Shown here piece by piece: positions 1,911 to 31,505 of a DNA stretch of 64,000 nucleotides (the stretch's first letter is position 1; the number at the start of each line of letters is the position of its first letter). Made by a program: the position numbers and the translations under genes. The notes beneath the pieces are model-generated. The model did no database searches. It worked only from the letters and a program-made list of their open reading frames with translations, and was not told the origin of the DNA. Source of the stretch: Novosphingobium sp. Fuku2-ISO-50 (lineage in GTDB: Bacteria > Pseudomonadota > Alphaproteobacteria > Sphingomonadales > Sphingomonadaceae); contig NZ_KQ954285.1 in the NCBI RefSeq assembly GCF_001519055.1, positions 124,001 through 188,000 on the forward strand, given 5' to 3'.

Positions 1911-2084
1911 TTAGCGGGCCGCACGAGCCGGAGTCAATCGCCCAAACGTCCATGGCCGACCTCTTCGCACGGACGCTGATCCAGCTCATAACCCAAACGG
2001 GTTATGCATCGGATCCTGCCAGGCGATACCCTGGGTTCAATCACACAGAATGCGCGTCCGGTCAGGGCGCCAGGGGAGAGAGCC

Positions 2085-7616: not shown

Positions 7617-9749
7617 ATGACCTCGAATCTCTACCCCCATCTCCTGTCCCCCGGCCGCATTGGCACGCTGGAGTTGAAGAACCGCATTGCGGTCACGGCC
7701 ATGGGGGTCAGCCTGTCGGAAGACGATGGCACCGTGGGCGAACGACTGATCGCCTATCACGAGGAACAGGCAAAGGGCGGGGCCGGCCTGATCATTTCGG
7801 GCGTGGCCGGGGTCGCCTGGCCGGTCGGTGCAGTGGCGCTGGGCCAGACCGCGATCTCTGACGACCGCTTTATCCCCGACTTGCGCCGCCTGACCGACCG
7901 CGTCCATGCGCATGGCGCAAAGATCGCCACGCAATTGCATCATGGCGGCTTTGTCGCGGCCTATTCTCATGGCCGCTGGGGTCATCCGCTGTGGGGGCCG
8001 GCGGTGCCGCCCGCGCCCAAAGGCAATTTCACCGAATATTTCCTGATGGAGGAACTGGCGGGCCTTGCCGGCATGAAAGTGCCTGAACTCAAAATTCTCG
8101 AACAGGCGGACATAGATCTCGTCGTCAGCCAGTTCGCCGCCGGGGCGCGGCGCGCAAAGGAGGCCGGGTTTGACGGGGTGGAGATCCACGGCGGGCATGG
8201 CTACCTGCTGTCCTCGTTCACCTCGCCTTATACCAACAGTCGCACCGACCGCTACGGCGGCAGCCTGGAAAACCGCCTGCGCCTGACGCTGGAAGTGATC
8301 GCGGCAATCCGCGCAGAAGTCGGCCGCGACTATCCGGTGTGGATCAAGCTGGATTCGCGCGAAGTCGGCAAGCCCGGCGGGATCACCATCGAAGACGCGA
8401 AGGCGGCGGCGAAACTGGTCGAAGCCGCCGGTGTCGATGCCATCACCGTCACCGCCTATCACGACACCGGCAATGGCAAGCTGCATTCGGCATCGAACAT
8501 CCCGCATATCGAGGACACCAACCTGCCCGCCACGGCCGAAATCAAGCGGCTGGTTTCGATCCCGGTGATCGGGTCGGGCCGAATCGAAGTCCCCACCGCC
8601 GACACCACGATCGGCCGGGGGGATGCGGATTTCATCGCCATGGGGCGCAAGCTGCTGGCCGATCCGCATCTGCCGGCAAAACTGATGCGCGGCGAACCGG
8701 AAAAGGTGCGCCCTTGCGTCTATTGCTACACCTGCGTCAGCGCGATCTACATGGGCCAGCCTTCGCGTTGCGCGGTCAATGCTTCGTTGGGCCACGAATG
8801 CGACGGCACGCCGCCTTCAGCCGCGACCGACGCTGCGCCGATCGGCGTCGTGGGCGGCGGCCCCGGCGGAATGGAGGCGGCCCGCAGGCTGTCGGCGCTG
8901 GGCTACAAGGTCGTGCTGTTCGAAAAATCGGATCGGCTGGGCGGCACGCTGCGCTTTGCCGGGCTTGCCTATGAACCCAACGAACGCCTGCTCGAATGGT
9001 TGCGGCGCGAGGTTCGCGATGCGGGTGTCGATGTGCGCCTGTCGACCAGGGCCACGCCGGACTTGCTCCGTTCACTTGGTATCGCCTGCGTGGTCGTCGC
9101 GACCGGCGCCATTCGCGGCATGCCGCCGATCCCCGGCAATGATCAGGATCATGTCTATTCCGGCGACGACATGCGCGCGATGATGCTGGGCGAAAGCTCG
9201 GACGAATTGAAGCGCAAGACCGGCCTGTTCACGCGCATCGCCACAAAAGTCGGCGCGGCGACCGGCGCCACAGCCAACCTTGCGCTGGTGCGCAAGGCGA
9301 CGCATGCATGGATGCCGCTGGGTCAATCGATCGCCATTATCGGTGGCGAACTGGTCGGGCTGGAACTTGCCGAATTCCTGACCGAGCGCGGGCGCACGGT
9401 ACAGGTGATCGAAGAAGCGCCCCGCCTTGGCAAAGGGCTGACTCTGGTGCGACGCATGCGTCTGATGGCCGAACTGGCCGAACATGGCGTCGGCCTGTAC
9501 GGCGGGGCGCGCGATGTGGTGATCGACAAGACCAGTGTCGCATTCACCGATGCTTCGGGCGCACGCCTGACCGTGGCCGCCGACAATGTGATCGTGGCGC
9601 GCGGGGCGCAAGGCGATCTGTCGCTGGCCGAGGCATTTGCCGCAGCGGGCTTCACCGTGCATCCCGTCGGCGATGCGCGGGGCGTAGGCTATATCGAAGG
9701 CGCGATCCACAGCGCGACCGAGGCCGTTCGCGCCATCGCCCAACAATGA
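7617..9749 (+). CDS. Old-yellow-enzyme-type NADH:flavin oxidoreductase, two-domain (FadH/TMADH-like)
   Basis: Protein of 710 residues in the 2,4-dienoyl-CoA reductase / trimethylamine dehydrogenase architecture. Residues 1-~360 form an FMN-binding TIM barrel with the catalytic stretch VEIHGGHGYLLSSF. Cys367, Cys370, Cys373 and Cys385 form a CX2CX2CX11C site for a 4Fe-4S cluster. The C-terminal half carries two nucleotide-binding folds (VVGGGPGGMEAARR, and IIGGELVGLELAEF). Such enzymes reduce activated C=C bonds with NAD(P)H through FMN, FeS and FAD. It opens a plus-strand run, and its stop overlaps a possible start (ATGA at 9746) of the following AsnC gene. Confidence 0.93.
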   Translation: MTSNLYPHLLSPGRIGTLELKNRIAVTAMGVSLSEDDGTVGERLIAYHEEQAKGGAGLIISGVAGVAWPVGAVALGQTAISDDRFIPDLRRLTDRVHAHGAKIATQLHHGGFVAAYSHGRWGHPLWGPAVPPAPKGNFTEYFLMEELAGLAGMKVPELKILEQADIDLVVSQFAAGARRAKEAGFDGVEIHGGHGYLLSSFTSPYTNSRTDRYGGSLENRLRLTLEVIAAIRAEVGRDYPVWIKLDSREVGKPGGITIEDAKAAAKLVEAAGVDAITVTAYHDTGNGKLHSASNIPHIEDTNLPATAEIKRLVSIPVIGSGRIEVPTADTTIGRGDADFIAMGRKLLADPHLPAKLMRGEPEKVRPCVYCYTCVSAIYMGQPSRCAVNASLGHECDGTPPSAATDAAPIGVVGGGPGGMEAARRLSALGYKVVLFEKSDRLGGTLRFAGLAYEPNERLLEWLRREVRDAGVDVRLSTRATPDLLRSLGIACVVVATGAIRGMPPIPGNDQDHVYSGDDMRAMMLGESSDELKRKTGLFTRIATKVGAATGATANLALVRKATHAWMPLGQSIAIIGGELVGLELAEFLTERGRTVQVIEEAPRLGKGLTLVRRMRLMAELAEHGVGLYGGARDVVIDKTSVAFTDASGARLTVAADNVIVARGAQGDLSLAEAFAAAGFTVHPVGDARGVGYIEGAIHSATEAVRAIAQQ

Positions 9750-11454: not shown

Positions 11455-12087
11455 ATGACCGACACGGACGCTTTGCTGGCGCGGATCGACAGGCTTGAAT
11501 CGCTCGATTCCATCCGCCAGTTGCCGGCCAAATATTCGCTCGCGCTCGACATGCGCGACGGCGATGCCTGGGTGAACCTGTTTCCCGAAGACGTGCGCGT
11601 CGGCGGCGGCAAACAGGGCCGCAAGGCGCTGCGCGACTGGTTTGACGAGACCCATTCGATGCAATTCGACGGCACCAGCCACCACATCGGCGGCCATGTG
11701 ATCGATTTCGACGACCCCGACCATGCGCAAGGCGTGGTCTATTCGAAGAACGAGCACGAATGCGGCGCCGAATGGGTCATCATGCAGATGATGTATTTCG
11801 ATCAGTACGAACGCATGGACGGACGCTGGTACTTCCGCCGCCGTCTGCCGCTGTACTGGTATGCCAGCGATCTCAACAAGCCGCCGGTCGGCGATCGCAA
11901 GATGCGCTGGCCCGGCGTGCCGCCCTATCACGGCAGTTTCCACGACCTGTTTCCCAGCTGGAAAACCTATTGGGCGCGCGAAGGCAAACCGCACGACGGC
12001 CCGGTCGAGCCCCCGGCCCCGCTCGAACGCTTCATCGAGACGATGCGGCGCGGCGCGGCGCTGCCCAAACCGCGCGTGCGGAGCTGA
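11455..12087 (+). CDS. Nuclear transport factor 2-like (SnoaL) family protein
   Basis: Protein of 210 residues with an N-terminal helix LLARIDRLESLDSIRQLPAK followed by the cone-shaped NTF2 fold pattern (DMRDGDAWVNLFPEDVRV, HHIGGHVIDFDD, MYFDQYERMDGRWYFRRRLPLYWY). Family members in catabolic clusters are dehydratases, isomerases or hydrolases, or accessory proteins, and use His/Asp/Tyr pairs. The extended C-terminal ~60 residues, rich in Pro and Trp, are longer than a minimal NTF2 domain. It lies 12 bases after the flavin reductase and five before the OYE gene. The reaction cannot be deduced. Confidence 0.85.
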   Translation: MTDTDALLARIDRLESLDSIRQLPAKYSLALDMRDGDAWVNLFPEDVRVGGGKQGRKALRDWFDETHSMQFDGTSHHIGGHVIDFDDPDHAQGVVYSKNEHECGAEWVIMQMMYFDQYERMDGRWYFRRRLPLYWYASDLNKPPVGDRKMRWPGVPPYHGSFHDLFPSWKTYWAREGKPHDGPVEPPAPLERFIETMRRGAALPKPRVRS

Positions 12088-14927: not shown

Positions 14928-16859
14928 ATGCACGCCATTTCAAAGGCTCCTGCACCGAACCTGCCGATCACCGATCACGCCGGATTGCGCCGCGCACTGA
15001 ACGACGCCAACCTGCCGACGCTGCTGATGGTCTACACCACCTTTGTGCAGGATCGCGCCTATCTCGACAGCTTTGCCCCCTATCTGACCGCGCTCTATAC
15101 CGCCGAAATGCCGTCGACCGTACCTGAGCCGATGGCCGTAGACTTGCGCAACCGCCTGTTTGCGCTGCTGACATCGCCCACCCCGCCGCGTGAACCGCCC
15201 CTCGATCCGGAATTCCTGCGCCATATGATGAGCGTCAGTGTCGGCGAAGATGTCGATGCGGGCCTCGTCCCGGTGCTCTATGACCAAATGGGCTTCGAGC
15301 GCGCGGTGCCACGCAAGGACATTCCCGGACGCAAGATGCCGCCTGCCGACTTTGACGTGCTGGTGATCGGCGGCGGGATGAGCGGCATCGCGGCGGGCAT
15401 CAAGCTGGCCGAGGCGGGCTATTCCTTCACGATCATCGAAAAGAACGCGGAGTTGGGCGGCACCTGGTGGGAAAACCGCTATCCGGGCGTGGGCGTCGAC
15501 ACCCCCAGCCATTTCTACAGCTATTCGTTCGAACTCAATCCCGAATGGAGCCATTATCACCCCAAGGGCCAGGAGATTCAGGACTACCTGACCGGGGTCG
15601 CCGACCGCAACGGCATCCGCAGCCACGTCGTGTTCGAAACCCGCGTGACCGGTGCCGTCTGGGATGAAAAGACCGCAAAGTGGCATGTCAGCCTGCGCCA
15701 TCGCGACGGCACCACCAGCGAACGCGCGGTCAGCGCGGTGCTGTTGGCCCATGGCGTGCTCAACCGCTGGTCAATGCCCGGGATCCCGGGACTTGAATCC
15801 TTTGCCGGGCCAAAGATGCACACCGCCGGCTGGGATACTTCGGTCGATCTGAAGGGCAAACGCGTGGCCGTGATCGGCACCGGCGCCAGCGCGGCGCAAC
15901 TCGCACCCGCGATCGCCGATCAGGTCAGCCATCTGACTGTTTTCCAGCGGTCAAAGCACTGGGTCCTGAACAACCCGGACATCAACACCGGCGTCAATGA
16001 CAATGTCCGCTTCGCGTTGCGCGCCATCCCGCATTACAAGGAATGGTTCCGTTTTCGCGTTTACTGGTTCACGGGCGACGGGCTCTATGGCAACGTCAAG
16101 ATGGAGCCCGACTGGCCAAAGCAGGACGTGTCGATTTCGCCGCAAAACGATGCGGTGCGCAATTACGCGCTGCACTATATCCACACCAAGCTGGCCGATC
16201 GCCCCGACCTGATTGAAAAGCTGGTTCCCGACTATCCGATCTATGGCAAGCGCATCGTGCTTGATGCCGATGGCGGCTGGCTCGACACGCTCAGGCGCCC
16301 CAATGTCACGCTGGAAACCCGCACGATCGACCATATCGAACCTGATGCGGTAGTGTTGCGTGACGGAACGCGGGTCGAAGCCGACGTGCTGGCACTGGCG
16401 ACCGGGTTCGACATTGCCAAAGTGGTCGGCGATCTCGACATCGTCGGGCGTGGCGGCTGCCGGATCCAGGACGATTGGGGCGCGGATGACCCGCGTTCCT
16501 ATCTGGGCGTGATGGCGCCGGGCTATCCCAACTTCTTTTTCGTGCTGGGGCCCAACAGCGCGCCCAACCATGCCGCCGGGGTCAATATGGTGATCGAGGC
16601 CCAGATCAACTGGATGATTGAAACGCTCGATCTGATGGTCGCGAAAGGAACGCGGCAAGTCGAACCGACGATCCCCGCCTATCAGGCGTGGAACACCAGG
16701 GTCGAAGAACAGATGAAGCAGATGATCTGGTCGCATCCGCGCGCAAAGAGCTATTATCTCAATTCTGCGGGGCGCAATATCATCTCCTGCCCGTTCCGGC
16801 TCGCCGATTACTGGAAAATGACCCGCCACCCCGATCAGAGCGAACTTCGGTTCGGTTGA
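14928..16859 (+). CDS. Long-form Baeyer-Villiger-type flavin monooxygenase
   Basis: FAD/NADPH monooxygenase of 643 residues. An N-terminal extension of ~140 residues precedes the FAD loop GGGMSG (about 147-152); this extended form is known among BVMOs that act on large or cyclic ketones. ENRYPG follows, then the fingerprint FAGPKMHTAGW near 293-303 and the NADPH loop GTGASAAQ. It inserts oxygen beside a ketone to form a lactone or ester. GGAGAGGA lies in front of the ATG. It stands alone behind a strong palindromic operator. It is distinct from the shorter BVMO at 5134. It is convergent with the monooxygenase ending at 16921. Confidence 0.93.
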   Translation: MHAISKAPAPNLPITDHAGLRRALNDANLPTLLMVYTTFVQDRAYLDSFAPYLTALYTAEMPSTVPEPMAVDLRNRLFALLTSPTPPREPPLDPEFLRHMMSVSVGEDVDAGLVPVLYDQMGFERAVPRKDIPGRKMPPADFDVLVIGGGMSGIAAGIKLAEAGYSFTIIEKNAELGGTWWENRYPGVGVDTPSHFYSYSFELNPEWSHYHPKGQEIQDYLTGVADRNGIRSHVVFETRVTGAVWDEKTAKWHVSLRHRDGTTSERAVSAVLLAHGVLNRWSMPGIPGLESFAGPKMHTAGWDTSVDLKGKRVAVIGTGASAAQLAPAIADQVSHLTVFQRSKHWVLNNPDINTGVNDNVRFALRAIPHYKEWFRFRVYWFTGDGLYGNVKMEPDWPKQDVSISPQNDAVRNYALHYIHTKLADRPDLIEKLVPDYPIYGKRIVLDADGGWLDTLRRPNVTLETRTIDHIEPDAVVLRDGTRVEADVLALATGFDIAKVVGDLDIVGRGGCRIQDDWGADDPRSYLGVMAPGYPNFFFVLGPNSAPNHAAGVNMVIEAQINWMIETLDLMVAKGTRQVEPTIPAYQAWNTRVEEQMKQMIWSHPRAKSYYLNSAGRNIISCPFRLADYWKMTRHPDQSELRFG

Positions 16860-20129: not shown

Positions 20130-21656
20130 TTATACCGGCTTGCGCCCGGCCCAGGGCGCCGCGCGTTCGATCTGCCCGGCCAGGCGGAACAACAGCGCTT
20201 CCTCGCCATAGCGGCCCATCGCCATGACCCCGATCGGCAATCCGTCGCGGCTCATCCCCAGCGGCAGCGACATCCCCGGCTGGCCGGTCATGTTGGCCAG
20301 TTGGGTAAACGGCGACCAGGTGCTTACGCGGCGACCCCATTCCTCGAACCCGACCCCGGGGCTGAGATTGATTTCGCCCAACAGCAGCGGCGGCGCGGCC
20401 AGAGTCGGCGACAGGATCACATCATGACGGTCCATGAATTGGCCGACGGTTACGGCGGCGGCCTGCAAGGTGTTGTTGGCGCGCGCAAAGTCCATGCCGC
20501 TGCACTTTTCGCCAAAGGCGATCATCGCCAGCGTGATCGATTCGAGCGTATCGGGCCCGACGACGAGCCCGGTGGCGCGCGCCCGATCGGTCACGTCCGC
20601 CGCCACCGACGAGCCCATGAGCACGAAACTGGCCCAGCCGATCGCCGCCGCATCAAGCTTCGGCGCGGCTTCCTCGACATGATGACCAAGACTTTCAAGC
20701 AGCCTGGCCGTGGCTTCGAGCGTTGCCAGCACTTCGGGATCAACCGGCGATCCCGAATTCGGCCGGGTCATCAGTGCGACACGCAATTTGCCCGGATCGC
20801 GCCCGACCTGACTGAGGAATGTCCCGTCGGGCGTCGGCGCGCCATAGCGCGAGCCCGGTTCCACGCCCTGCGTCGCATCGAGGATCGCAGCGGAATCGCG
20901 CACAGAACGGGTCACCGCGTGATGCACGGACAGTCCGCCCCAGCCTTCGGTCCGCGCCGGCCCCATCGGCACCCTGCCCCGGCTCGGTTTCAGCCCGAAC
21001 AGCCCGCAACACGATGCGGGGATGCGGATCGACCCGCCGCCATCGGTCGCATGGGCAGCCGGCAACACGCCGGCCGCGACCGCCGTCGCCGCGCCCCCCG
21101 ACGATCCGCCGGTGGTATGCGCCGGGTTCCAAGGGTTGCGGGTGGCGCCGGTCACCTTGTTTTCGGTCGTGCCGGTCAGACCGAATTCGGGGGTCGTCGT
21201 CTTGCCGAAAATGACAAAGCCCGCGCGCTCCACCCTGCGCACCAGTTCCGACGTCTCGGTCGCCCGATAATCGGCGTAAAACCGGCTGCCATTGCCGGTA
21301 CGTTCGCCGGCGATATGGGTGTTGAGATCCTTCAACAGCCACGGCACCCCGGAAAACGGCCCTTCGGGCAGCCCGGCAGCAACCGCCGCATGCGCCCGGT
21401 CGTACAACCGCTGCGCCATGAAGCTGAAACGCGGGTTCATCGCCTCGGCGCGGGCAATCGCCGCGTCGAGCAGTTCGGCGGCACTGACTTCGCGCCGCCG
21501 AATGCGTTCCGCCAGGCCAAGCGCATCATCGCTTGCCAGCAAATCTCCGATCATTCCCGCGCTCCCGGACTTTGTCGTTTTTGCCATGATCCCTCGCGGC
21601 ACGGCAGCCGTCATCGTGGCCGCCGCACCCGCCAGCACTGTGCGTCTTGAAATCAT
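20130..21656 (-). CDS. Amidase-signature family enzyme with Tat signal peptide
   Basis: Protein of 508 residues. The N terminus ISRRTVLAGAAATMTAA is a twin-arginine export signal, so the enzyme is probably periplasmic. The amidase signature is complete: Lys109 (LLKDLN), the GGSSGG loop with the cis-Ser near 185-186, and the nucleophile Ser209 in DGGGSIRIPAS. Family members hydrolyse amides and sometimes esters. Its ATG overlaps the stop of the Rieske gene upstream as ATGA, so it is the last gene of the CoA-ligase/amidohydrolase/Rieske operon. An exported enzyme could act on the substrate before uptake. Confidence 0.93.
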   Translation of the reverse strand: MISRRTVLAGAAATMTAAVPRGIMAKTTKSGSAGMIGDLLASDDALGLAERIRRREVSAAELLDAAIARAEAMNPRFSFMAQRLYDRAHAAVAAGLPEGPFSGVPWLLKDLNTHIAGERTGNGSRFYADYRATETSELVRRVERAGFVIFGKTTTPEFGLTGTTENKVTGATRNPWNPAHTTGGSSGGAATAVAAGVLPAAHATDGGGSIRIPASCCGLFGLKPSRGRVPMGPARTEGWGGLSVHHAVTRSVRDSAAILDATQGVEPGSRYGAPTPDGTFLSQVGRDPGKLRVALMTRPNSGSPVDPEVLATLEATARLLESLGHHVEEAAPKLDAAAIGWASFVLMGSSVAADVTDRARATGLVVGPDTLESITLAMIAFGEKCSGMDFARANNTLQAAAVTVGQFMDRHDVILSPTLAAPPLLLGEINLSPGVGFEEWGRRVSTWSPFTQLANMTGQPGMSLPLGMSRDGLPIGVMAMGRYGEEALLFRLAGQIERAAPWAGRKPV

Positions 21657-22720
21657 GCGTAGTACCGCGCGTAGAATTTGCGGAATTGCGGAATCGGGCC
21701 GTCGCCATCGCAGATGATCGGGTTGGTTTCGTATTTTTGCCGATCCCAGATCACCTTGTCCTGGTCGAACTGCTTGCAGATATCGCGCACGATGGCGCGG
21801 GCGACCCCGGCGCGTTCGCCCTCGGCCTGTGCACGCGGTTGGGCAAAGCAGAACCGCACGTGGACGTGGTCCAGCTCCACCGGTGTCAGACAGGCGACCA
21901 GCAGCGTTTCCGAAATCCCGGTAAAGCGCGTCCAGCTTTGCCCCGGGCCCATCGTGTCATAGCTGATGCAGCCATCGACTTCGCCCCAGGGCGTGCCCAT
22001 CTTCGCCTTCACATCGGCGCCGCGGCCCCAGTCACCCCAGCGCAGATCGCCCAGCGGCACATTGGCCGTGCCGTGGATATAACGGAAATGCGCCACATCG
22101 ACGCCATTTTCGGCCATATTCTGGATCGAGCCCCAGACATTCCATTCATAGATGTCGAATTCGGTCCAATCGGGGTCGGAACATTCGGGCAAGTGCGCCA
22201 CGTCAAACAGCGGGGCGACATCTTCGGGGTGATACCAGGCCCAGATCCAGCGGTTGGCCTCGGTCACGTGCCAGGTCCGGATGCACTTGCGCTTTACTTG
22301 CGGCGGGATGGTGCGGGCATAGGGGATTTCGGCCACCACGCCTTCGGCACCGTCATAGCGCCAGGCGTGAAACGGGCATTCGAGCAAGTTGCCATGCACT
22401 TTGCCGCCATGCCCCATATGCGCGCCCAGATGCTTGCAATAGGCATCGAGCATCCGCACTTCGCCGTCTTCGCCGCGCCAGATCGCCAGATCCTTGCCGA
22501 AATAGCGCAGCGGCTTGACTTCGCCCGGCGCCAGTTCGGACGAGAGCAGCAACGGATACCAGCCAAACGGAAAGCCGATGTCGAGCCCGCGCTCCTCGAC
22601 CGAGGCGAGCCCCTTGACTTCGGCCAGGCGCCATTCCTTGAGCGCATCACCCTTCAGTTTCTCGAGAATCTGCCACACTGCCACCGGTGGCGTGCGGGCG
22701 TCGGTTGCTGCCTCGGTCAT
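21653..22720 (-). CDS. Rieske non-heme iron oxygenase, alpha subunit (KshA-like)
   Basis: Protein of 355 residues. The Rieske 2Fe-2S ligands are Cys95-x-His97 and Cys115-x2-His118. The mononuclear iron site is Asp208, with His211 and His216, preceded by the bridging-region Asn205. The C terminus has ICDGDGPIPQFRKFY, a pattern of KshA-type (3-ketosteroid 9-alpha-hydroxylase) and related oxygenases. It needs a separate reductase, and none is visible in the window. AAGGGAT lies before the ATG. It follows the amidohydrolase gene by 17 bases and overlaps the amidase by four. Hydroxylation of a polycyclic or alicyclic substrate is the family-based guess. Confidence 0.92.
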   Translation of the reverse strand: MTEAATDARTPPVAVWQILEKLKGDALKEWRLAEVKGLASVEERGLDIGFPFGWYPLLLSSELAPGEVKPLRYFGKDLAIWRGEDGEVRMLDAYCKHLGAHMGHGGKVHGNLLECPFHAWRYDGAEGVVAEIPYARTIPPQVKRKCIRTWHVTEANRWIWAWYHPEDVAPLFDVAHLPECSDPDWTEFDIYEWNVWGSIQNMAENGVDVAHFRYIHGTANVPLGDLRWGDWGRGADVKAKMGTPWGEVDGCISYDTMGPGQSWTRFTGISETLLVACLTPVELDHVHVRFCFAQPRAQAEGERAGVARAIVRDICKQFDQDKVIWDRQKYETNPIICDGDGPIPQFRKFYARYYA

Positions 22721-22737: not shown

Positions 22738-23613
22738 TTATGGAAGATTGAATACCTTGCGCGCGTTTTCGCGCAGGAATTTCGGCCAGACATCATCCTT
22801 GAACGGAACACTGGGCATATCGCCCATGATCCGGTCGAGGCTCAGGCCCATCGGAAAATATCCGGCATAAATGATTTTGTCGGCTCCGCGCGTATTCGCG
22901 TAGTCGATGATCGCCTTCGGGTAGTGCTTTGGTGCGAACGCGCTGGTCGAATAATAGAGGTTCGGCCATTTCAGCATGAGCTTCACGGCAAGGTCTTGCC
23001 ATGGCTCGGCGCCATGGCGCATGACAACTTTCAGTTCAGGAAAAAACCAGCAAACTTCGTCGAGATGTTCGACTTTTTGCGTTTCCATCGGGATACGCGG
23101 CCCCGGAATCCCGACATTGAGCAGGATCGGCAGACCCAGTTCGCAGGCGGTCGCGTAAAGCGGGAACATGTACTTGTGGTTGATCGCGACTTGCGGAAGC
23201 GTGCCCGCAGGAAACACGCTGATCGCCGAAAGGCCGACTTCGGCATGGATCCGCTTGATCCGGCGCACTTCGTCCATGCCGCCGTTGGGGTCGCACGGCA
23301 GGTCGAAGAAGAACCTGTCGCCATACATTTCCCTGGCGCGGCGCGAGGTGGCATTGTCGTTCCACCCGACCAGCGCGCGTTCGATACCGTGCTTGTCCAT
23401 CTGTTCGACGGTCCAGCGGATGTAATCATCCTGCTGACCGGTCTGCGGGATGTCCTTGAACATATATTGCGCGGGCATCGCAAACTGCTGCAGCGTCTGC
23501 TGATCCTTGATCAGCGGACGGAACGGGGCGAACCAGTCGGAACGGTCCTCCGTATCGGGGATCCCCAGCATGCAGTCGATGATCTTGATGTCGGTGGGCA
23601 TGCCCATGGTCAT
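22738..23613 (-). CDS. Amidohydrolase-2-family protein with altered metal site
   Basis: Protein of 291 residues with the ACMSD-like amidohydrolase core: VFPAGTLPQVAINHKYMFPL, LPILLNVGIPGPRIP, VVMRHGAEPWQD, NLYYSTSAFAPKHYPKAII. The N-terminal metal motif DxHxH is replaced by DCMLGIP, and the late GSDxP motif by AGYFP. The usual zinc site is therefore incomplete, and the reaction may differ from ordinary hydrolysis or decarboxylation. The ATG at 23613 overlaps the CoA-ligase stop (ATGA); an ATG at 23607, better spaced from GGGGGAG, is also possible. It sits between the CoA ligase and the Rieske oxygenase in one operon. Confidence 0.88.
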   Translation of the reverse strand: MTMGMPTDIKIIDCMLGIPDTEDRSDWFAPFRPLIKDQQTLQQFAMPAQYMFKDIPQTGQQDDYIRWTVEQMDKHGIERALVGWNDNATSRRAREMYGDRFFFDLPCDPNGGMDEVRRIKRIHAEVGLSAISVFPAGTLPQVAINHKYMFPLYATACELGLPILLNVGIPGPRIPMETQKVEHLDEVCWFFPELKVVMRHGAEPWQDLAVKLMLKWPNLYYSTSAFAPKHYPKAIIDYANTRGADKIIYAGYFPMGLSLDRIMGDMPSVPFKDDVWPKFLRENARKVFNLP

Positions 23614-25328
23614 TTCTCCCCCTTGAGGTTCGGCCACGTTTGACGCAGCGCCTTCTTGTCCACTTTGCCCAGCACGTTGCGGGGCAGTGGCTCATGCATG
23701 ATCGCGATCTCGGTCGGCGCCTTGTACCGCGCAAGGCCGCTCGCCACGGCCTCGATCAGGGTGTGGGCGTCGAGCCCATCCCCCTTGACGCCATCCCCCT
23801 TGACGACCGCCACGAGGCGCTCGCCAAGCCGATCGTCGGGCAAGCCGAACGCGGCGCATTCCAGCACGCCGGGCTGTTCGCCCAGCACGCGTTCGACTTC
23901 GGCGCAAAAGATGTTCTCCCCGCCCGAAATGACCATGTCCTTCACCCGGTCGACGATGAAGATGTAATGTTCATCATCGACAAAGCCGACATCGCCCGTG
24001 CGCAGCCAGCCATCGGCAGTGAACGCCGCAGCGGTCGCCTCGGGCCGGTTCCAGTACCCCTGCATCACGAACGGCCCGCGCACCTGGATCTCGCCCGTAT
24101 CGCCGGGGCCAAGCACCGTGCCATCGGGCGCGACGATGCGCACATCGGCAAGCGGCAGAACGCGCCCCGCCGAGGCCCGCTTGCGCAGGAAATCGGCGCC
24201 CACCGCCTGCGCCAGCGCACCGGCGCATTCGGTCATGCCATAGCCGGTGCCCATCATCGCCTGCGGGCATGCCGCGCGGATCGCATCGAGCAGATTCACG
24301 GGCAGCGCCTGTCCTCCGCTGGCGACATTGCGCAGCGAGGCCAGCCCGCCCCCTGCGCCCGCCCCGCCCCCTGCCCCGCCCGCTTCGACGGCACGCAGCA
24401 GATCCCACAGCATGGTGGGCACGCCGGACAGCACTGTCACCCCTTCGTCGGCGATGAGCCGCAACGCGTCGGCCGGGTTCCAGCGACGCAGGATGATCGT
24501 TTTCGTGCCGGCGATCAACGGCGAGAGGAAGCCCGAGCCAAGCCCCGAAATATGAAACAACGGATAAACCAGCAGTGTCGCCTGCTGCGGCATGTGCGCC
24601 AGAATCGTCTCGACCGGCAACCCTTGCGCCTGGGCAATCCCGTGGAGCACCATCATGCCCGACAGTTGCACCGTCATCAGCCCGGTAACGAGGTTGCGAT
24701 GGGTCAGCACGACGCCGCGCGGCCGCCCGGTGGTGCCCGAGGTAAACAGGATCGCTGCCGGATCGTCGGGCGATGCCGTATGGGCGATCAAGCCCGACGC
24801 AGCCCCCTCGCCCGGCTCGGGCGCGGCATCGGGCTGGGTAAGGTCGATCATCGGTCCGGCATACCCGCCGACCTTCAAGGCGTCGAAGGCACGGGTGTCG
24901 GCCAGAACCAGCGAGGGAGTCACTTCCTCGATCATGGCGATCAGTTCGACGGGCGAGCCCCGACTGTTGAACAGCGCCGCGACCCCGCCTGTGCGCAGCA
25001 CCGCCAGAAAGCCGATCATCCATTCGGCACGGTTGTGCATGCAGATGGCAATGCGCTGCCCACGCCGATCGCCAAGCTGCGCGGCAAGGCGGTCGCGGGC
25101 AGCAAAGATTTCGGCAAAGCTGGTGCGACGCTCGCTGCCGTCATCGCGCCAGTCGACGATCGCGGTGCGGTCGCCATGCCGGCGCGCGCTCTCGATCATC
25201 AGATTGAGATCCGGCGGCGCATGGCGAAAGGCGCGAGCGCCCTCCTGCTCCACTATCTCGAACCCCATGCCGGGCCCGGTCAGTTCGGCGAGAAGGGGAT
25301 CGCTTTGGGCAGATGACGGCACGGTCAT
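23610..25328 (-). CDS. AMP-dependent acyl-CoA synthetase/ligase
   Basis: Adenylate-forming enzyme of 572 residues. The P-loop ILFTSGTTGRPRGV, the GYGMTE motif, GWLRTGDVGFVDD, the hinge DRVKDMVISGGENI and the catalytic Lys of LGKVDKKALR are all present. It should activate a carboxylic acid to its CoA thioester at the cost of ATP. A glycine/alanine loop (AGGAGGGAGAGGG) and a tandem VKGDG repeat are local low-complexity inserts. The ATG at 25328 is chosen; an ATG at 25334 is two codons upstream. It is the first gene of the minus-strand operon that continues with amidohydrolase, Rieske oxygenase and amidase. Confidence 0.93.
   Translation of the reverse strand: MTVPSSAQSDPLLAELTGPGMGFEIVEQEGARAFRHAPPDLNLMIESARRHGDRTAIVDWRDDGSERRTSFAEIFAARDRLAAQLGDRRGQRIAICMHNRAEWMIGFLAVLRTGGVAALFNSRGSPVELIAMIEEVTPSLVLADTRAFDALKVGGYAGPMIDLTQPDAAPEPGEGAASGLIAHTASPDDPAAILFTSGTTGRPRGVVLTHRNLVTGLMTVQLSGMMVLHGIAQAQGLPVETILAHMPQQATLLVYPLFHISGLGSGFLSPLIAGTKTIILRRWNPADALRLIADEGVTVLSGVPTMLWDLLRAVEAGGAGGGAGAGGGLASLRNVASGGQALPVNLLDAIRAACPQAMMGTGYGMTECAGALAQAVGADFLRKRASAGRVLPLADVRIVAPDGTVLGPGDTGEIQVRGPFVMQGYWNRPEATAAAFTADGWLRTGDVGFVDDEHYIFIVDRVKDMVISGGENIFCAEVERVLGEQPGVLECAAFGLPDDRLGERLVAVVKGDGVKGDGLDAHTLIEAVASGLARYKAPTEIAIMHEPLPRNVLGKVDKKALRQTWPNLKGEK
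23776..23805. repeat. Tandem 15-bp duplication inside the acyl-CoA ligase gene
   Basis: Two adjacent identical copies of a 15-base unit (CCATCCCCCTTGACG on the plus strand) at 23776-23790 and 23791-23805. They encode VKGDG twice in the C-terminal subdomain. The length is a multiple of three, so the frame is preserved. It looks like a recent replication-slippage product in a surface loop. Confidence 0.85.
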
Positions 25329-25815
25329 GGGCATGACCTGCGGCAATATGCCGAAAACGCGTGGGATCGCGTGTCTGCGGCGGGCATGGGCTCTCCTCTC
25401 GTATCGCAGCGGCCTTGTAGCATCGGCATTTTAAACCCGACGATTCGACGCACTTGCAGCTCATGAAACACTATAAAGTGGCTTTTGCGAATTTCAAGGC
25501 GCTTTAATCTGCGCACAATCATGCTGCCGGCGGCATTTCGGCCACAAACACCAGGGGCACAGATTCGAGGCCGTGATTTGAGGCGGGTTGGCGCCAAAGA
25601 TAAAGGGTCTACGCCAAAAGGGCCGTTCCCCGCCGTATCCGGGGACCACAGGCAGGCTGAGCTCCACAGGCGCTCACCGCTTGCGACGGCACATCCCGCG
25701 CCTTTGCGCCATCCGCAAAATATTACGCATTGTCTTTGTATTTCTAGATTTTGATCTCGATATGCGTCATATATCGCGCTAGCATTCGCGATAAAGAAAA
25801 GCAGATGGAGCGAGG
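25329..25815. other. Intergenic region between divergent CoA-ligase and AtuA operons
   Basis: This 487-base gap must hold two divergent promoters. No open frame in it resembles a protein, and the frames that exist have no ribosome sites. AT-rich stretches lie at about 25466-25510 and 25715-25800; the second contains ATATGCGTCATATATCGCG just before the AtuA gene. No perfect copy of the TetR-type palindrome or of the TTTTACGCAAA element is present. I see no terminator or RNA gene here. Confidence 0.6.
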
Positions 25816-27639
25816 ATGACCCAGCGAGGAACACGCGGCCCGGTCTTTATTGGCGGGGCCAGCGGCGCACTGAACGACAGCGAGATTGCCGTCCCGGGGC
25901 TGCTGCGCGCCGAACGGCTGGATTACCTCGTGTTCGACTACCTTGGCGAAGGGGCGATGGGCCTGTTTGCCTATCTCAAACGGATGAATCCGCAATCGGG
26001 GTTTCTGCCCGATTTCGTCGATCTGCACATCGGCCCCTATCTGTCGCAGATCAAGGCGCGCGGGATCAGGGTGGTCGCCAATGCTGGCGGCCTCAATCCC
26101 GAAGGTCTCGCCGCGCTGATCCGTGAACGCGGCAAGGCGCAAGGGATCGATCTGAAAGTCGCCACCGTCACCGGCGATGACCTGATCGACCGCGCAGACG
26201 AGCTCGGCGCAAGTGGCCTGACCGACATGTACGATGGCCGCCCCTTTCCGAAGAGCGGCATTTCCAGCCTGCACGTCTATCTCGGCGCCTTTCCGATCGC
26301 GGCCGCGCTGGATGCGGGCGCCGATGTCGTGATCACCGGGCGGGTGGTCGACAGCGCGCTGATTCTTGGTCCGCTGATCCACGAATTCGGCTGGTCCGCC
26401 GCCGATCACGACCTGCTGGCGGGCGGCACAGTGGCCGGCCACTTGCTCGAATGCGGGGCACAAGTCACCGGCGGCACCTTCACCGACTGGCGCAGCGTAC
26501 CCGACTGGGCCGGAATCGGCTTTCCCATCGGCGAATGCCATGCCGACGGCAGCGTCGTGATCACCAAGCCGCCGCGGACGGGCGGGCTGGTCTCGGTCGC
26601 TACCGTGGCCGAACAACTGCTTTACGAAGTCGGCGATCCGCAGGCCTATATCGTGCCCGACGTGGTCTGCGATTTCGCCGCGATCCGCCTGGAACAGGTC
26701 GGGGCGGACCGCGTGAAAGTGTCGGGCGCACGCGGCCATCCGGCGCCGACGATGCTCAAGCTGTGTGCCACGGTCGACGCCGGCTGGCGCTCGATCGCGC
26801 TGATCCCGGTGATCGGCATCGATGCCGTGGCCAAGGCCGAGCGGCAGGCCGCCGCGCTGATCGAACGGTGTACCCGAATCATTGGCGAACGCGGCCTTGG
26901 CGACTGGACCCGCACGCATGTCGAAGTGATCGGCACCGAGGCGGGCTATGGCCCCCGCGCGCAAGCGCTGACCCCGCGCGAAGTGCTGCTCAAGATCATT
27001 GTCGATCACCCGGTGATGGCCGCTGCGGCGCTGTTCGGCCGCGAACAGACCACCGCGATCATGAACATGGCGCCCGGAACCTCGATCGCGCCGATCATCG
27101 CCGCGCCGCGCGCACAACCGCTGACCGACATGGTGTTCGCGCTGATTGCACGCGACGGCATTGTTCCGCGTGTCACGCTTGATGGCGTGCCGGTGCCCTT
27201 TGCCGATCCGGTTGTGCCCGGCTTCGACCCTGCCGCGATCGTGCGCCCGGCAGTGCCCGGCGATCTCGATCCGGGCCCCGATACCTGCACCGTCCCGCTG
27301 ATCCGGCTGGCCTTTGCGCGCAGCGGCGACAAAGGGCGGCTGTTCAATGTCGCCGCCATTGCCCGCCGGCCCGAATATCTGCCGTGGATCCGCGCTGCGC
27401 TGACCCCGCAGGCCGTCGCCGACTGGTATCGCCACTGTTTTGCCGATCCCGCGGGGGCTAAGGTCGACCGCTTCGAGGTGCCCGGTTGCCACGCGCTCAA
27501 TCTGGTCGTCCACGAAGCGCAAGGCGGCGGCATCAATCTGTCGCCCCGGCTCGACCCGGCGGCCAAGGGCATGGGCCAGCACCTGCTGGAAATGCCTGTT
27601 CGCATTCCCGCCGCGCTCGCGGCCAGTCTTGAGGGATAA
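25816..27639 (+). CDS. AtuA-like (DUF1446) acyclic terpene utilisation family protein
   Basis: Protein of 607 residues with the AtuA/DUF1446 layout: FIGGASGALNDSEIA at the start, DYLVFDYLGEGAMGL, NAGGLNPEGLAALI, ITGRVVDSALILGPL, the YIVPDVVCDF block, and a C-terminal LAFARSGDKGRLFNV segment from the AtuA tail domain. In Pseudomonas AtuA is needed for citronellol/geraniol catabolism, but its reaction is not established; the family also occurs in other CoA-linked pathways. GGAGCGAGG precedes the ATG. It forms an operon with the Coq4-like gene five bases downstream and diverges from the CoA-ligase operon. Confidence 0.9.
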   Translation: MTQRGTRGPVFIGGASGALNDSEIAVPGLLRAERLDYLVFDYLGEGAMGLFAYLKRMNPQSGFLPDFVDLHIGPYLSQIKARGIRVVANAGGLNPEGLAALIRERGKAQGIDLKVATVTGDDLIDRADELGASGLTDMYDGRPFPKSGISSLHVYLGAFPIAAALDAGADVVITGRVVDSALILGPLIHEFGWSAADHDLLAGGTVAGHLLECGAQVTGGTFTDWRSVPDWAGIGFPIGECHADGSVVITKPPRTGGLVSVATVAEQLLYEVGDPQAYIVPDVVCDFAAIRLEQVGADRVKVSGARGHPAPTMLKLCATVDAGWRSIALIPVIGIDAVAKAERQAAALIERCTRIIGERGLGDWTRTHVEVIGTEAGYGPRAQALTPREVLLKIIVDHPVMAAAALFGREQTTAIMNMAPGTSIAPIIAAPRAQPLTDMVFALIARDGIVPRVTLDGVPVPFADPVVPGFDPAAIVRPAVPGDLDPGPDTCTVPLIRLAFARSGDKGRLFNVAAIARRPEYLPWIRAALTPQAVADWYRHCFADPAGAKVDRFEVPGCHALNLVVHEAQGGGINLSPRLDPAAKGMGQHLLEMPVRIPAALAASLEG

Positions 27640-27644
27640 AGGCC

Positions 27645-28463
27645 ATGACCGAGACGACCCCCTATCTTGCGCGTGGCGGCCAGAAGATCACCACCGAGAG
27701 CACCACGCTGATCAGTTCGTCGGATTATCTCAACGAACCGCGCCTGCGCGACTGGCTGGCGACGGCATTCCTGCGCAAAAGCGGGAAAGATTCGCCGACG
27801 ACGCACGACGCCTACAAACTCTACACCATTCTCCGGGATGTGTTCGACGTTGACCGGATCGAGGCGCTGTTCACCGCAGAACGCAAGCGCCGGCCCGAAC
27901 TGGATGCGTGGTTCGACGCGGGCTTTTCCTCCAGCTTCAGCGTCGAAGACCTGCTGGCCAACCCCGAAGGATCTCTCGGACACATCTTTGGCCGCTATAT
28001 CCGCGACAATGGATTCGAGATCGATATCGTCCCGCGATTTGTCCCGCGCAACCAGTTCGAATATTTCTCGCTCCGCAGCGGGCAAACGCATGATCTCGAA
28101 CATATCCTGCTGGGGGGCGGGTTCGACATTCTGGGTGAACTGGTTCCCTATTGGGCGCGGCTGAGCAATTTGCCGCGTTTTCTCGATCCGGAACTGGTCG
28201 GTTTGATCAATGCAGGGCAAGTGCTGGGCGCACTGCGACTCGTTTGCCGCACCGGGCTGCATTATCATTCCGCGTTTCCCGCCGCGATGCAGGCCATGCG
28301 CTGCGGCATGACTGTGGGCGAACAATCCGGCCCCTATTGGATGCGGCGGTTCGAGGATGTGTTTCACCTGCCGCTGGGCGAAGCGCGCGCAGCGCTTGGC
28401 ATTGTCGGCGCAGTCGATCTCGACACCAGCGCGGCCTCGCTCACCTGGCCGGAATACCGATGA
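27645..28463 (+). CDS. Coq4-family protein
   Basis: Protein of 272 residues carrying the full Coq4 metal motif HDxxHx11E: His149-Asp150, His153 and Glu165 in the stretch HDLEHILLGGGFDILGE. Coq4 acts in ubiquinone biosynthesis and recent work assigns it oxidative decarboxylation at ring carbon C1, with a metal in this motif. Here it is placed in a catabolic operon directly after an AtuA-like gene and not near other ubi genes, so it may have been recruited for a degradative reaction on a ring or prenyl-like compound. That is an inference from context. It is convergent with the Rieske gene at 28534. Confidence 0.9.
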   Translation: MTETTPYLARGGQKITTESTTLISSSDYLNEPRLRDWLATAFLRKSGKDSPTTHDAYKLYTILRDVFDVDRIEALFTAERKRRPELDAWFDAGFSSSFSVEDLLANPEGSLGHIFGRYIRDNGFEIDIVPRFVPRNQFEYFSLRSGQTHDLEHILLGGGFDILGELVPYWARLSNLPRFLDPELVGLINAGQVLGALRLVCRTGLHYHSAFPAAMQAMRCGMTVGEQSGPYWMRRFEDVFHLPLGEARAALGIVGAVDLDTSAASLTWPEYR

Positions 28464-28533: not shown

Positions 28534-29505
28534 TCACGCCGGCAGGAATTCACCGGCATATTCGCGATAGCGCATGATCGGGCCGTCACCGGCGCAGATC
28601 AGCGGTCGCTTGAGGTGCTTCTTGAAATTGAGCACTTCAAAATCCTGGTCAATCTCGTCCAGCACGCGCTGGACAAAGGCGCCGCCGATCATGTCGTTCA
28701 TCTCTTTCGACCCGGTGTCGCTGATGTACATCCGCACGTGCAACTGGAACCGTTCCTTGTCGATCGGCGTGGCCGAGACATTCTGGATAAAGCCGAACCC
28801 TTCACCCAGCACGACATGGCTGACAAAGCTGATCCCGGAAAAGTTGAACTGCATGTGGCCGATCGGGAACATCTGTTCTGCCGACGGCGCGTAATCGACC
28901 TGCATGCCCCAGGCGGTGCGGGTCACCGCGTCAATCTGCGGCAGGCCGACCGATTTGTGCAATTGTTCGATATGCGCGGTGTCAAACAGGTTTTCGAACA
29001 AGTCGCGGAACGGGGCGCGGCCTTCCTTGCGCTTTTCGGCATAGGGGATCCAGGTGCGATCGGCAAACGTGTCGCGCAAGTCGGATGGGTCATAGTCGGG
29101 GGCGCCGCCTGACGGATCCCACCACATCATCACTGTGCCGGCGAATTCGCGCGTGGGATACGTGGTCAGCGCGGCCTGCGGCGGGATCACTTTGGTATAG
29201 GGGATCGCGGTGCACTTGCCACTTTTGGCGGAAAAGCGCCATTTGTGGAACGGGCAGACGATCTCGCCCTTTTCAATGCGCCCGTCAAAGCTGGCGAAAT
29301 GCGCGCCAAGATGCGGGCAATAGGCATCGGCGACACGAAATGCCCCGTCCTCGTCGCGATAGGCGATCAACTGTTCGCCGAAAAAGGCGAGCGGAACCAG
29401 AGCGTCGGGCGGCACATCGGCGATTTCGGCGACAACGTACCAACCGCGGGCAAAGCCCGGAGTGTCGTCACGGGTTGCCATCGGAATGGGGGACAGTTCG
29501 GTCAT
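28534..29505 (-). CDS. Rieske non-heme iron oxygenase, alpha subunit (KshA-like), second copy
   Basis: Protein of 323 residues. The 2Fe-2S ligands are Cys63-x-His65 and Cys84-x2-His87. The iron-site residues are Asn172, Asp175, His178 and His183. It ends with ICAGDGPIMRYREY, like the Rieske protein at 21653, so the two are paralogues of the same KshA-like class though clearly diverged. GGGAGAA before the ATG at 29505 supports the start. No ferredoxin or reductase gene is adjacent. It diverges from the amidohydrolase at 29763 across a 257-base gap that probably carries both promoters. Confidence 0.92.
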   Translation of the reverse strand: MTELSPIPMATRDDTPGFARGWYVVAEIADVPPDALVPLAFFGEQLIAYRDEDGAFRVADAYCPHLGAHFASFDGRIEKGEIVCPFHKWRFSAKSGKCTAIPYTKVIPPQAALTTYPTREFAGTVMMWWDPSGGAPDYDPSDLRDTFADRTWIPYAEKRKEGRAPFRDLFENLFDTAHIEQLHKSVGLPQIDAVTRTAWGMQVDYAPSAEQMFPIGHMQFNFSGISFVSHVVLGEGFGFIQNVSATPIDKERFQLHVRMYISDTGSKEMNDMIGGAFVQRVLDEIDQDFEVLNFKKHLKRPLICAGDGPIMRYREYAGEFLPA

Positions 29506-29762
29506 CGCGATTCTCCCGTATTGTGGTTCTGGTCGGGGCTTTGCACCGTGCCAGTCGTTTGTGATCCTAACGCGTTTGCCATGACCCGGCGCAGGATCGG
29601 ACGGGCTATCGCTGGAGCGGGATCACCAGGTTGGCCGTTTCGGATCATCTGAATATCCGTTTGGTCGATGACGGGGGTCTGCGTCCGATCCATGGCGCGG
29701 TAGAATGCGCGTGCAGGATCGCGGGCCACCCTGACAGGCCCGAGACCTGGGGAGAGATCACC

Positions 29763-31505
29763 ATGCAGGACAAGTACCTCATCAAGAACGGGACCGTTGT
29801 CGATGGCACGGGCGCGCCGGCCTACAGGTGCGACGTGCGCGTGCGTGGCAACCGGATAGCGGCCATCGCCCCCAACATGGAGCCCGAACGGCGAGAGCGG
29901 GTGATCGATGCCACCGGCTGTTATGTCGCCCCGGGCTTTATCGAGACGCATAATCATTATGACGCACCGATGTGGTGGATGCCCACGCTCGATCCGATGC
30001 CGGGCTATGGCGTGACCACCTCGATCAACGGAAATTGCGGTTTTGCCGCTGCGCCGGTCCATGACGATCCGGCGGTCCGCCAGGAAATGGTCGATATCTT
30101 CTCGTTTTTTGAAGACATCCCGGAAAAGCCTTTCCGCGACCTGCTGCCATGGGATTGGAAGACCTGGAGCGAATACAGGGCCTCGCTCGAACGCAATGTG
30201 AAGATCCCGGTCAACTATGCCGCCTATGTCGGGCATATCGCCATCCGCCTTGCCGTGATGGGGCTCGAAGCCTGGGACCGCGCCGCAACACCGGCCGAAA
30301 TCGCAAGGATGTGCGCCCTGCTTGAAGACGCCTTGGCCGCCGGTGCGCTTGGCATGTCGAGCAACCTGCTCGACCATGACAAGAACGACCGCCCGATCCC
30401 CACCCGCAAGGCCGACGATGCCGAATTCGACGCGCTGTTCGCGGTGATCGCGCGGCATCCCGGCACCAGCGTGCAGGTCATCGTCGATTTCTTCATGCGG
30501 CTGGATGGCCTGCCCAATTCCGAACGGATGAGCGCGCTGGCCAAAAAGCACGGCATCCGCATGCAGATCGCCGGCGGAGTGCCGACCCTGGCGTTTCAGG
30601 CGTTCGCAATCGAAGGCGCCGAGGCATTGCACGCGCGCAACAAGGCCGAAGGCAACGATGTCTGGCCGGGGTTCCATGTCATTTCGCCGACCACCATTGT
30701 CAGCTTCAATTCCTCGTTGCTGTTTGCGCAATCGAACAACTATGTGTGGAGCGAGCTGATCCAGGCCAGGGGCGAAGCGGCAAAGTTCGCCATGCTCGAA
30801 GATCCCGAATGGCGCGCAAGGGCGCGCGAATCCTGGGACAAGACCTTTGAAATCTCGCCCGTGCGCAATGCCTGCGACATCCATTTCCTCGACAGCGCCA
30901 CCGGCGTCGGCCCGGTAACCGGCACCTTGCAGGACTATATGGATATCCACGGCCAGACCCATCCTTCGGATGGCCTGGCCGACTGGCTGCTCGATAACGG
31001 CACCGACTCGACAATCAAGATCAGCGATTTTGCCAACAACGAATCCGCACTCGACAAGCTTCTGACCGATCCCCAGGCAATCGGTAACTTGTGCGATTCA
31101 GGCGCGCACGGACAAATGTTCTGCGGCGTGGGCGACAATGTCCTGTTCCTGACCCGCTATGTCCGAGAACGCAAACAACTGACCATCGAACAGGGGATCG
31201 AATACCTGACCGGACGCATCGCCGGGCATTTCAACCTTGACGATCGGGGCGTGTTGCAAGTCGGGCGCAAGGCCGACATCGTGGTGTTCGACCTCGATGA
31301 AATCGAACGTCGGCCAGAGGAAAAGGCCTGGGACGTGCCCGACGGTGAAGGCGGGCGCACCTATCGCTATACCCGTCAGCCTGCACCGATGCGCCTGACC
31401 ATGGTCAATGGCGTGCCGACGTTCGACCGCGGCGCCTTTACCGGGGCGTTTCCGGGTGAATATGTCGGGCCCGACGCGCCGACGCTGGCCGAGGCGGCGG
31501 AATGA
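29763..31505 (+). CDS. N-acyl-D-amino-acid deacylase-type amidohydrolase
   Basis: Amidohydrolase of 580 residues. It begins KYLIKNGTVVDGTGAPAYRC, has the metal motif ETHNHYD near residue 61-67, then NGNCGFAAAP, and the late GxHxQ-like segment CDSGAHGQMFC, with the C-terminal GRKADIVVFDLDE strand. The D-aminoacylase family hydrolyses N-acyl or cyclic amide/ester bonds; in catabolic clusters many members are uncharacterised. GGGGAGAG precedes the ATG at 29763, so the longer upstream frame is rejected. It is an intact relative of the broken gene at 14378. It closes the catabolic region. Confidence 0.9.
   Translation: MQDKYLIKNGTVVDGTGAPAYRCDVRVRGNRIAAIAPNMEPERRERVIDATGCYVAPGFIETHNHYDAPMWWMPTLDPMPGYGVTTSINGNCGFAAAPVHDDPAVRQEMVDIFSFFEDIPEKPFRDLLPWDWKTWSEYRASLERNVKIPVNYAAYVGHIAIRLAVMGLEAWDRAATPAEIARMCALLEDALAAGALGMSSNLLDHDKNDRPIPTRKADDAEFDALFAVIARHPGTSVQVIVDFFMRLDGLPNSERMSALAKKHGIRMQIAGGVPTLAFQAFAIEGAEALHARNKAEGNDVWPGFHVISPTTIVSFNSSLLFAQSNNYVWSELIQARGEAAKFAMLEDPEWRARARESWDKTFEISPVRNACDIHFLDSATGVGPVTGTLQDYMDIHGQTHPSDGLADWLLDNGTDSTIKISDFANNESALDKLLTDPQAIGNLCDSGAHGQMFCGVGDNVLFLTRYVRERKQLTIEQGIEYLTGRIAGHFNLDDRGVLQVGRKADIVVFDLDEIERRPEEKAWDVPDGEGGRTYRYTRQPAPMRLTMVNGVPTFDRGAFTGAFPGEYVGPDAPTLAEAAE

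Follow-up and report, generated by a model that had tools for sequence, protein, structure and literature searches.

The acyclic terpene utilisation (atu) cluster, from which the protein AtuA is known, includes geranyl-CoA carboxylase genes. For anaerobic naphthalene degradation, PMC12016498 describes, from its authors' unpublished results, how a cyclohexane ring is opened at a tertiary hydroxyl carbon by ThnQS, an AtuA-like lyase. COQ4 was reported to be a Zn-dependent aromatic decarboxylase in vitro, with no product formed by double mutants of its HDxxHx11E motif (PMC7615680), whereas human COQ4 was reported to be an oxidative decarboxylase in cells (PMC11495197), and the chemistry of COQ4 is debated. 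In a stretch of 64,000 nucleotides from Novosphingobium sp. Fuku2-ISO-50 (contig NZ_KQ954285.1, positions 124,001 to 188,000 of the forward strand; hereafter the window, whose own numbering is used), a gene for an AtuA-family protein is followed directly by a gene for a Coq4-family protein. Our reading of this pair, to which we assign a probability of roughly 0.55, is that the Coq4-family protein is a catabolic metalloenzyme, probably removing a carboxylate, which works in series with exchangeable bond-cleaving partners and outside ubiquinone synthesis.

The AtuA open reading frame (ORF) lies at 25816–27639 on the plus strand (607 aa) and the Coq4-family ORF at 27645–28463 on the same strand (272 aa). 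Five bases separate the stop of the former from the start of the latter, as the initial annotation had stated. Against Pfam, the AtuA-family protein, a likely C–C lyase, matched PF07287 over its full length with 447 bits (cut-off 22.8) and AtuA_ferredoxin PF23544 at residues 493–595 with 95.8 bits (cut-off 27), and the Coq4-family protein matched PF05019 with 33.4 bits (curated cut-off 22.9). The HDxxHx11E motif, described earlier as fully conserved, was found to be exact in the window protein (HDLEH-x11-E at residues 149–165, with His149, Asp150, His153 and Glu165) and invariant across an 18-row alignment, in which the branch of the window protein also showed an additional conserved N-terminal stretch. 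When 50 ORFs of the window, some of them spurious frames, were scanned against Pfam, Coq4 itself was the sole ubi/coq-family match, in line with the claim that no ubi genes lie near. No geranyl-CoA carboxylase genes were detected among these 50 ORFs, the remaining genome not having been searched for them. The window protein thus resembles AtuA of acyclic terpene utilisation in matching PF07287 over its full length and PF23544, but its setting differs from the atu cluster in having Coq4 as the neighbour and no geranyl-CoA carboxylase genes among the scanned ORFs. The family names Coq4 and AtuA are right, and the functions attached to them, ubiquinone biosynthesis and acyclic terpene use, are unsupported here.

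A search for conserved AtuA–Coq4 adjacency, suggested by the initial annotation, revealed that the arrangement is recurrent. Among the matches listed, AtuA adjoined Coq4 in 12 of 12 intact copies with 67–100% identity to the window Coq4-family protein, its own included (a 13th copy, split over two frames in genome G018, was left out), and the gene beyond the pair varied among these copies (TonB receptor, Rieske, NTF2-like). In 199 genomes of the family Sphingomonadaceae, 32 full-length AtuA genes were found in 26 genomes, after 9 of 41 matches had been dropped as weak, all below 100 bits. Fifteen of the 32 were located within 1 kb of a strong Coq4 match of the window branch, compared with a chance expectation of 0.13 for random placement in 4 Mb. 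The two genes formed an adjacent pair in 14 of the 15 family genomes having both, G591 being the exception. Their co-occurrence across genomes gave a Fisher p of 4e-13, a value that overstates independence because the genomes are related. Where orientation was recorded (n = 29), AtuA was upstream on the same strand in 25 cases, downstream on the same strand in 1 and on the opposite strand in 3; since the arrangements vary, the link outlives rearrangement. The two genes also occur in N. aromaticivorans DSM 12444, under the locus tags SARO_RS19010 (AtuA) and SARO_RS19015 (Coq4). At G694:C12:66645-68691, a full-length AtuA gene was observed beside a short Coq4 fragment, and this locus may be the remnant of a decayed pair. 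No paper tying Coq4 to AtuA or to catabolism was found in the open-access literature.

The partners of Coq4 were then placed on a tree of 120 rows, consisting of 109 branch members and 11 other-type bacterial Coq4 rows. "Other-type" or "canonical-type" is our label for the type encoded on contig 2 of the window genome (see below) together with shorter class proteins, none of which is proven to make ubiquinone. The loci are genus-search matches plus the best family and class matches, some of them near-copies, and do not form a random sample; neighbouring genes were called by a simple caller based on GC at codon position 3. The direct neighbour was AtuA for 30 of the 109 branch members, an Amidohydro_3 (D-aminoacylase-like) gene for 45 and neither for 34. 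Two of these labels were set by hand: L004 was assigned to Amidohydro_3 on account of a one-base overlap, and L184 was added as AtuA because a mis-extended frame had hidden that gene. Before this, the counts were 29 AtuA, 44 Amidohydro_3, 3 Coq4 and 33 other among 109 rows, one of which, L003, is the contig-2 Coq4. The AtuA labels required at least 8 changes on the tree versus 26.8 in shuffles, with none of 500 shuffles as low, and the Amidohydro_3 labels required 12 versus 36.4; these low counts arise partly because near-copies make any label cluster. The AtuA-paired copies sit at several separated places of the tree, and even the starred branches by themselves require 6 or more changes of the AtuA label. 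The 11 other-type rows formed one side of a branch, opposite the 109 branch members, with a Shimodaira–Hasegawa-like approximate likelihood ratio test (SH-aLRT) value of 91, obtained by a quick method with long branches flagged and with no proven eukaryote COQ4 included. As a control, the flanks (up to about 1.5 kb) of 30 contig-2-type Coq4 genes contained neither AtuA nor Amidohydro_3.

These results indicated that the branch Coq4 has two or more kinds of partner, AtuA among them. The earlier proposal of AtuA as the partner was right in that the link recurs beyond chance, but it was too narrow, because two sister copies in the same genome pair with Amidohydro_3; AtuA as the sole partner was ruled out by Amidohydro_3 and by further neighbours. 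The remaining scanned neighbours were mixed and included a Rieske oxygenase, a GMC oxidoreductase, a zinc alcohol dehydrogenase, an alpha/beta hydrolase and unrelated DNA-metabolism genes. A Gfo/Idh/MocA oxidoreductase was the third recurrent neighbour, directly upstream in L075, L211, L212, L214 and L215. A trio of TauD-type dioxygenase, Coq4 and Amidohydro_3 was also observed (L050:14116-17564, L074:11115-14567, L173:3969-7573 and L177:3261-6757), on Sphingobium plasmids and in two further genomes.

The window genome (G000; 4.42 Mb, 100% complete) contains three Coq4 genes of the window type within 67 kb, at 85.8, 102.2 and 151.6 kb of contig C1, the last being that of the window; AtuA is single-copy. 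In one of the two other copies on C1 (L052) an Amidohydro_3 amidohydrolase gene lies 5 bases upstream, and in the other (L004) the Coq4 stop overlaps the Amidohydro_3 start by one base. A fourth Coq4, on contig 2, outscores the window protein on the Pfam model (50 versus 33 bits) and lies near genes for a HAD hydrolase, an IPP transferase and a thiamine-diphosphate enzyme. The window gene as the only Coq4 of the genome was therefore ruled out, by two more copies on C1 and the one on contig 2; the initial annotation had suggested looking for such another Coq4 and had taken a sole copy whose loss abolishes ubiquinone synthesis as speaking against a catabolic role. Among relatives, the window protein was matched in 44 of 197, its own genome included; of the 199 family genomes sampled, 18 gave a match of at least 170 bits to a profile of the branch. 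Up to 12 candidates per genome were scored in the family search and up to 6 in the class and phylum searches, and copy numbers are thus lower bounds: G764 has at least 10 branch copies, and G709, G639, G662 and G591 have at least 8 each. Tandem branch Coq4 genes were observed in L029, L030, L031 and L232. Strong branch matches in the class (385 genomes) were confined, outside the family, to G442 and G522, which belong to one genus of another family and have at least 6 each; in the phylum sample of 398 genomes, from which that genus was absent, they occurred only in the window genome and one more family member. Weaker matches to other-type Coq4 proteins were seen in many more genomes.

It might be supposed that the window gene is an extra Coq4 for ubiquinone biosynthesis, for example a substitute for a missing UbiD, as the window genome gave no UbiD match; of the 37 genomes sampled in the genus, its own included, 34 are without UbiD. 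A COQ7 gene is present on another contig. Zymomonas is a member of the same family as the window genome. Both ubiD and ubiN were reported missing from it (PMC10626278). Nevertheless, we consider this very improbable: a higher-scoring Coq4 is present on contig 2, 153 of the 197 relatives have no match to the window protein, and the window gene is situated in a catabolic island with AtuA. Moreover, neither UbiD nor a PF05019 match was found in 11 of the 37 same-genus genomes, 9 of these 11 being at least 99% complete, so that the decarboxylase generally used for ubiquinone in the genus does not appear to be Coq4. The COQ4 of ubiquinone biosynthesis is required for the C1 decarboxylation/hydroxylation of ubiquinone precursors; on such a role the patchy distribution and the catabolic setting of the window protein bear only indirectly. 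Catabolic recruitment of the Coq4 fold, as first proposed from the window, remains the best reading, because the protein is not the only Coq4, its gene belongs to a catabolic island, and AtuA accompanies it far more often than chance would allow; the decarboxylase/hydroxylase activity and the ring or isoprenoid substrate of the same proposal are putative.

Inspection of the Coq4-family protein suggested an all-helical, predicted metalloenzyme in which the intact HDxxHx11E motif would bind the metal. All 109 branch members of the tree had an intact motif, and it was present in 92 of the 94 distinct Coq4-like ORFs that made up an earlier set. Only six columns (R35, H149, D150, H153, E165 and R248) were invariant across 67 diverse rows, which included two of the contig-2 type. 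The AlphaFold model had a predicted local distance difference test (pLDDT) value of 93.2, and when it was compared with 605 chains, the best matches were 6e12_B (Z 19.8, 2.7 Å over 211) and 3msq_A (Z 18.3), both cyanobacterial Coq4-family structures, with the next at Z 3.5. The window protein is thus similar to COQ4/PF05019 in its Pfam match above the cut-off, its motif and its helical fold like 6e12 and 3msq, but differs in the separate branch with the extra N-terminal stretch, in the copy number of at least 10 in one genome, and in its occurrence in catabolic islands with AtuA or Amidohydro_3.

For the AtuA-family protein, the fold is the main evidence for a lyase identity, because its sequence similarity to the citramalate lyase structures 9erq and 9evf was weak (profile E 0.0004). 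Residues 6–457 of the AlphaFold model (pLDDT 88.6) could be superimposed on chain 9evf_A with Z 31.7 and 3.7 Å over 422 residues at 16% identity. Foldseek matched the model to chain 9evf_B (E 0.002, 3.2 Å, 110 columns, prob 1.00, TMt 0.70) with the aligned region of the model unspecified. From the length of this match and the position of PF23544 at residues 493–595, we infer that the CmlB-like part is the C-terminal domain. As the model matches both chains A and B of 9evf, the protein probably combines the two subunits of a C–C lyase in one chain. It shares the predicted core fold and the GRxxD and LYExSDP stretches with the citramalate lyase CmlA/CmlB (9erq, 9evf), but it is a single chain and only 16% identical. 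No paper joining AtuA with citramalate lyase was found in the open-access literature. By description rather than by sequence comparison, the window protein can also be likened to ThnQS, both being AtuA-like lyases, encoded in a ring-degradation operon for ThnQS and in a putative one here; the ThnQS route is, however, anaerobic, and Coq4 is not mentioned in the passages of PMC12016498 that describe it.

On this basis, AtuA and the Coq4-family gene would constitute one unit of the catabolic island of Novosphingobium. The AtuA-type protein, judging from its fold and family, may split a beta-hydroxy acid or its CoA thioester, and the Coq4-type protein would remove or replace, possibly oxidatively, a carboxylate of a hydrophobic, probably cyclic intermediate, in a step just before or just after that of the lyase. 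The Coq4-type protein would not be used for ubiquinone synthesis, and in the sister modules a metal-dependent amidohydrolase would make the cut in place of AtuA. With regard to the substrate class, a ring compound or terpenoid is a guess from the flavin and Rieske oxygenases of the island, and a cyclic isoprenoid or norisoprenoid is likewise a guess, from a carotenoid-cleavage gene elsewhere on plasmid pNL2.

Several observations weigh against this reading. Seventeen of the 32 AtuA genes are away from a branch Coq4: the genomes of 11 have no such Coq4, and 6 (among them that beside the fragment in G694) share their genome with one. Three of these 6 are in G591, which has at least 8 Coq4 copies. 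L178:4950-5813, with 78% identity to the window protein and within the AtuA-paired clade, has no adjoining AtuA, and 34 of the 109 branch copies have neither AtuA nor Amidohydro_3 next door. In an alternative reading, AtuA, Amidohydro_3 and Coq4 would be separate members of crowded islands, adjacent by shared history and without a joint function; the islands are indeed dense in such genes, AtuA and Coq4 are apart in G591, and the 34 copies with neither partner would fit as well. However, the pairing recurs on several branches of the tree, the stop-to-start spacing is often about 5 bases or a small overlap (some up to 283), and 15 proximities were observed where 0.13 were expected, which makes mere shared history quite doubtful. 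As for the protein itself, L035:1441-2283, a short locus outside the tree, keeps HDIEH without the motif glutamate at the expected spacing, which makes it a naturally occurring variant suited to testing the metal site. Decarboxylation is transferred by analogy from a distant relative, the Pfam score of the window protein being 33 bits. In addition, 6e12 was solved with oleic acid according to the entry title, which is compatible with a binding or scaffold role. The Coq4-like protein might be a non-catalytic carrier or scaffold of hydrophobic ligands, with a structural metal site, and offer a lipophilic intermediate to whichever partner it has, AtuA or the amidohydrolase. This would agree with the discussion of Coq4 as an organiser of the coenzyme Q (CoQ) complex (PMC11495197), with the oleic acid in the closest solved structure, and with the change of partner while Coq4 stays, as a carrier would allow. 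Yet H149, D150, H153 and E165 make up four of just six invariant columns over the 67 diverse rows, and no product was formed by COQ4 when this motif was doubly mutated (PMC7615680); a carrier role is thus regarded as unlikely. The catabolic metalloenzyme acting in series with a cleaving partner is retained as the preferred reading, at the probability given above.

The catabolic island spans about 0–31.5 kb of the window. Downstream of the pair, a Rieske oxygenase gene with a KshA_C domain (28534–29505, minus strand; PF00355, PF19298) is convergent with the Coq4 gene and is followed by an Amidohydro_3 gene (29631–31505, plus strand, the ORF being taken from the first start; PF07969, 101.5 bits). 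The latter encodes the kind of protein that pairs directly with other Coq4 copies, and it shares 58% identity with a "D-aminoacylase" encoded next to a Coq4 in the reference set. An Amidohydro_3 gene within a few kb of an AtuA–Coq4 pair was observed both here and on plasmid pNL2 (L049:23479-26206), where it has its own Coq4 and forms a second pair. On the other side of AtuA, the divergent CoA ligase/Rieske operon named in the initial annotation was recovered as a minus-strand series from 25346 to 20130, namely a CoA ligase (AMP-binding; 23610–25346, start approximate; PF00501, 250.7 bits), an Amidohydro_2 protein (22738–23637; PF04909, 66.2 bits), a Rieske oxygenase with a KshA_C domain (21653–22720; PF00355, PF19298) and an amidase (20130–21656; PF01425, 298.7 bits). 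Further plus-strand genes of the island encode a flavin-binding monooxygenase-like protein, possibly of the Baeyer–Villiger type (14928–16859; PF00743, 55.5 bits), a SnoaL-like protein (11455–12087; PF13577, 72.4 bits), an old-yellow-enzyme type NADH:flavin oxidoreductase (7617–9749; PF00724, 221 bits) and a luciferase-like flavin monooxygenase (2004–3248; PF00296, 157.7 bits). An alkene reductase (by similarity), short-chain dehydrogenases/reductases and an acyl-CoA dehydrogenase are also encoded, and the island has two amidohydrolases and two Rieske oxygenases in total. To its right lie housekeeping genes, including proB, obgE, mur genes and ftsZ/A/Q, and a proC-like gene just below its cut-off.

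Taken together, the evidence points to a larger finding than that of the initial annotation, namely a catabolic Coq4 branch with exchangeable partners. More tentatively, and at somewhat less than even odds, the Coq4 fold may represent a large catabolic family that performs metal-dependent carboxylate removal or hydroxyl swap on hydrophobic cyclic intermediates with interchangeable C–C or C–N cleaving partners (AtuA of the citramalate-lyase type or Amidohydro_3), a single bacterium having at least 10 modules that serve different substrates. If the catabolic reading is true, it would explain sphingomonad megaplasmid genes labelled "Coq4 family protein, ubiquinone biosynthetic process", and it would contribute a candidate step in a catabolic pathway of which no description was found. 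It would also provide a many-copy bacterial branch outside quinone synthesis and probably dispensable, in which the debated chemistry of COQ4, a zinc decarboxylase in vitro (PMC7615680) versus an oxidative decarboxylase in cells (PMC11495197), could be examined independently of the CoQ complex. Relatives of a protein that animals need for coenzyme Q have multiplied, in certain bacteria of soil and water, within clusters apparently built for the breakdown of organic compounds, and the window member lies beside a likely C–C lyase; the Coq4 fold may therefore have a second use, in degradation.

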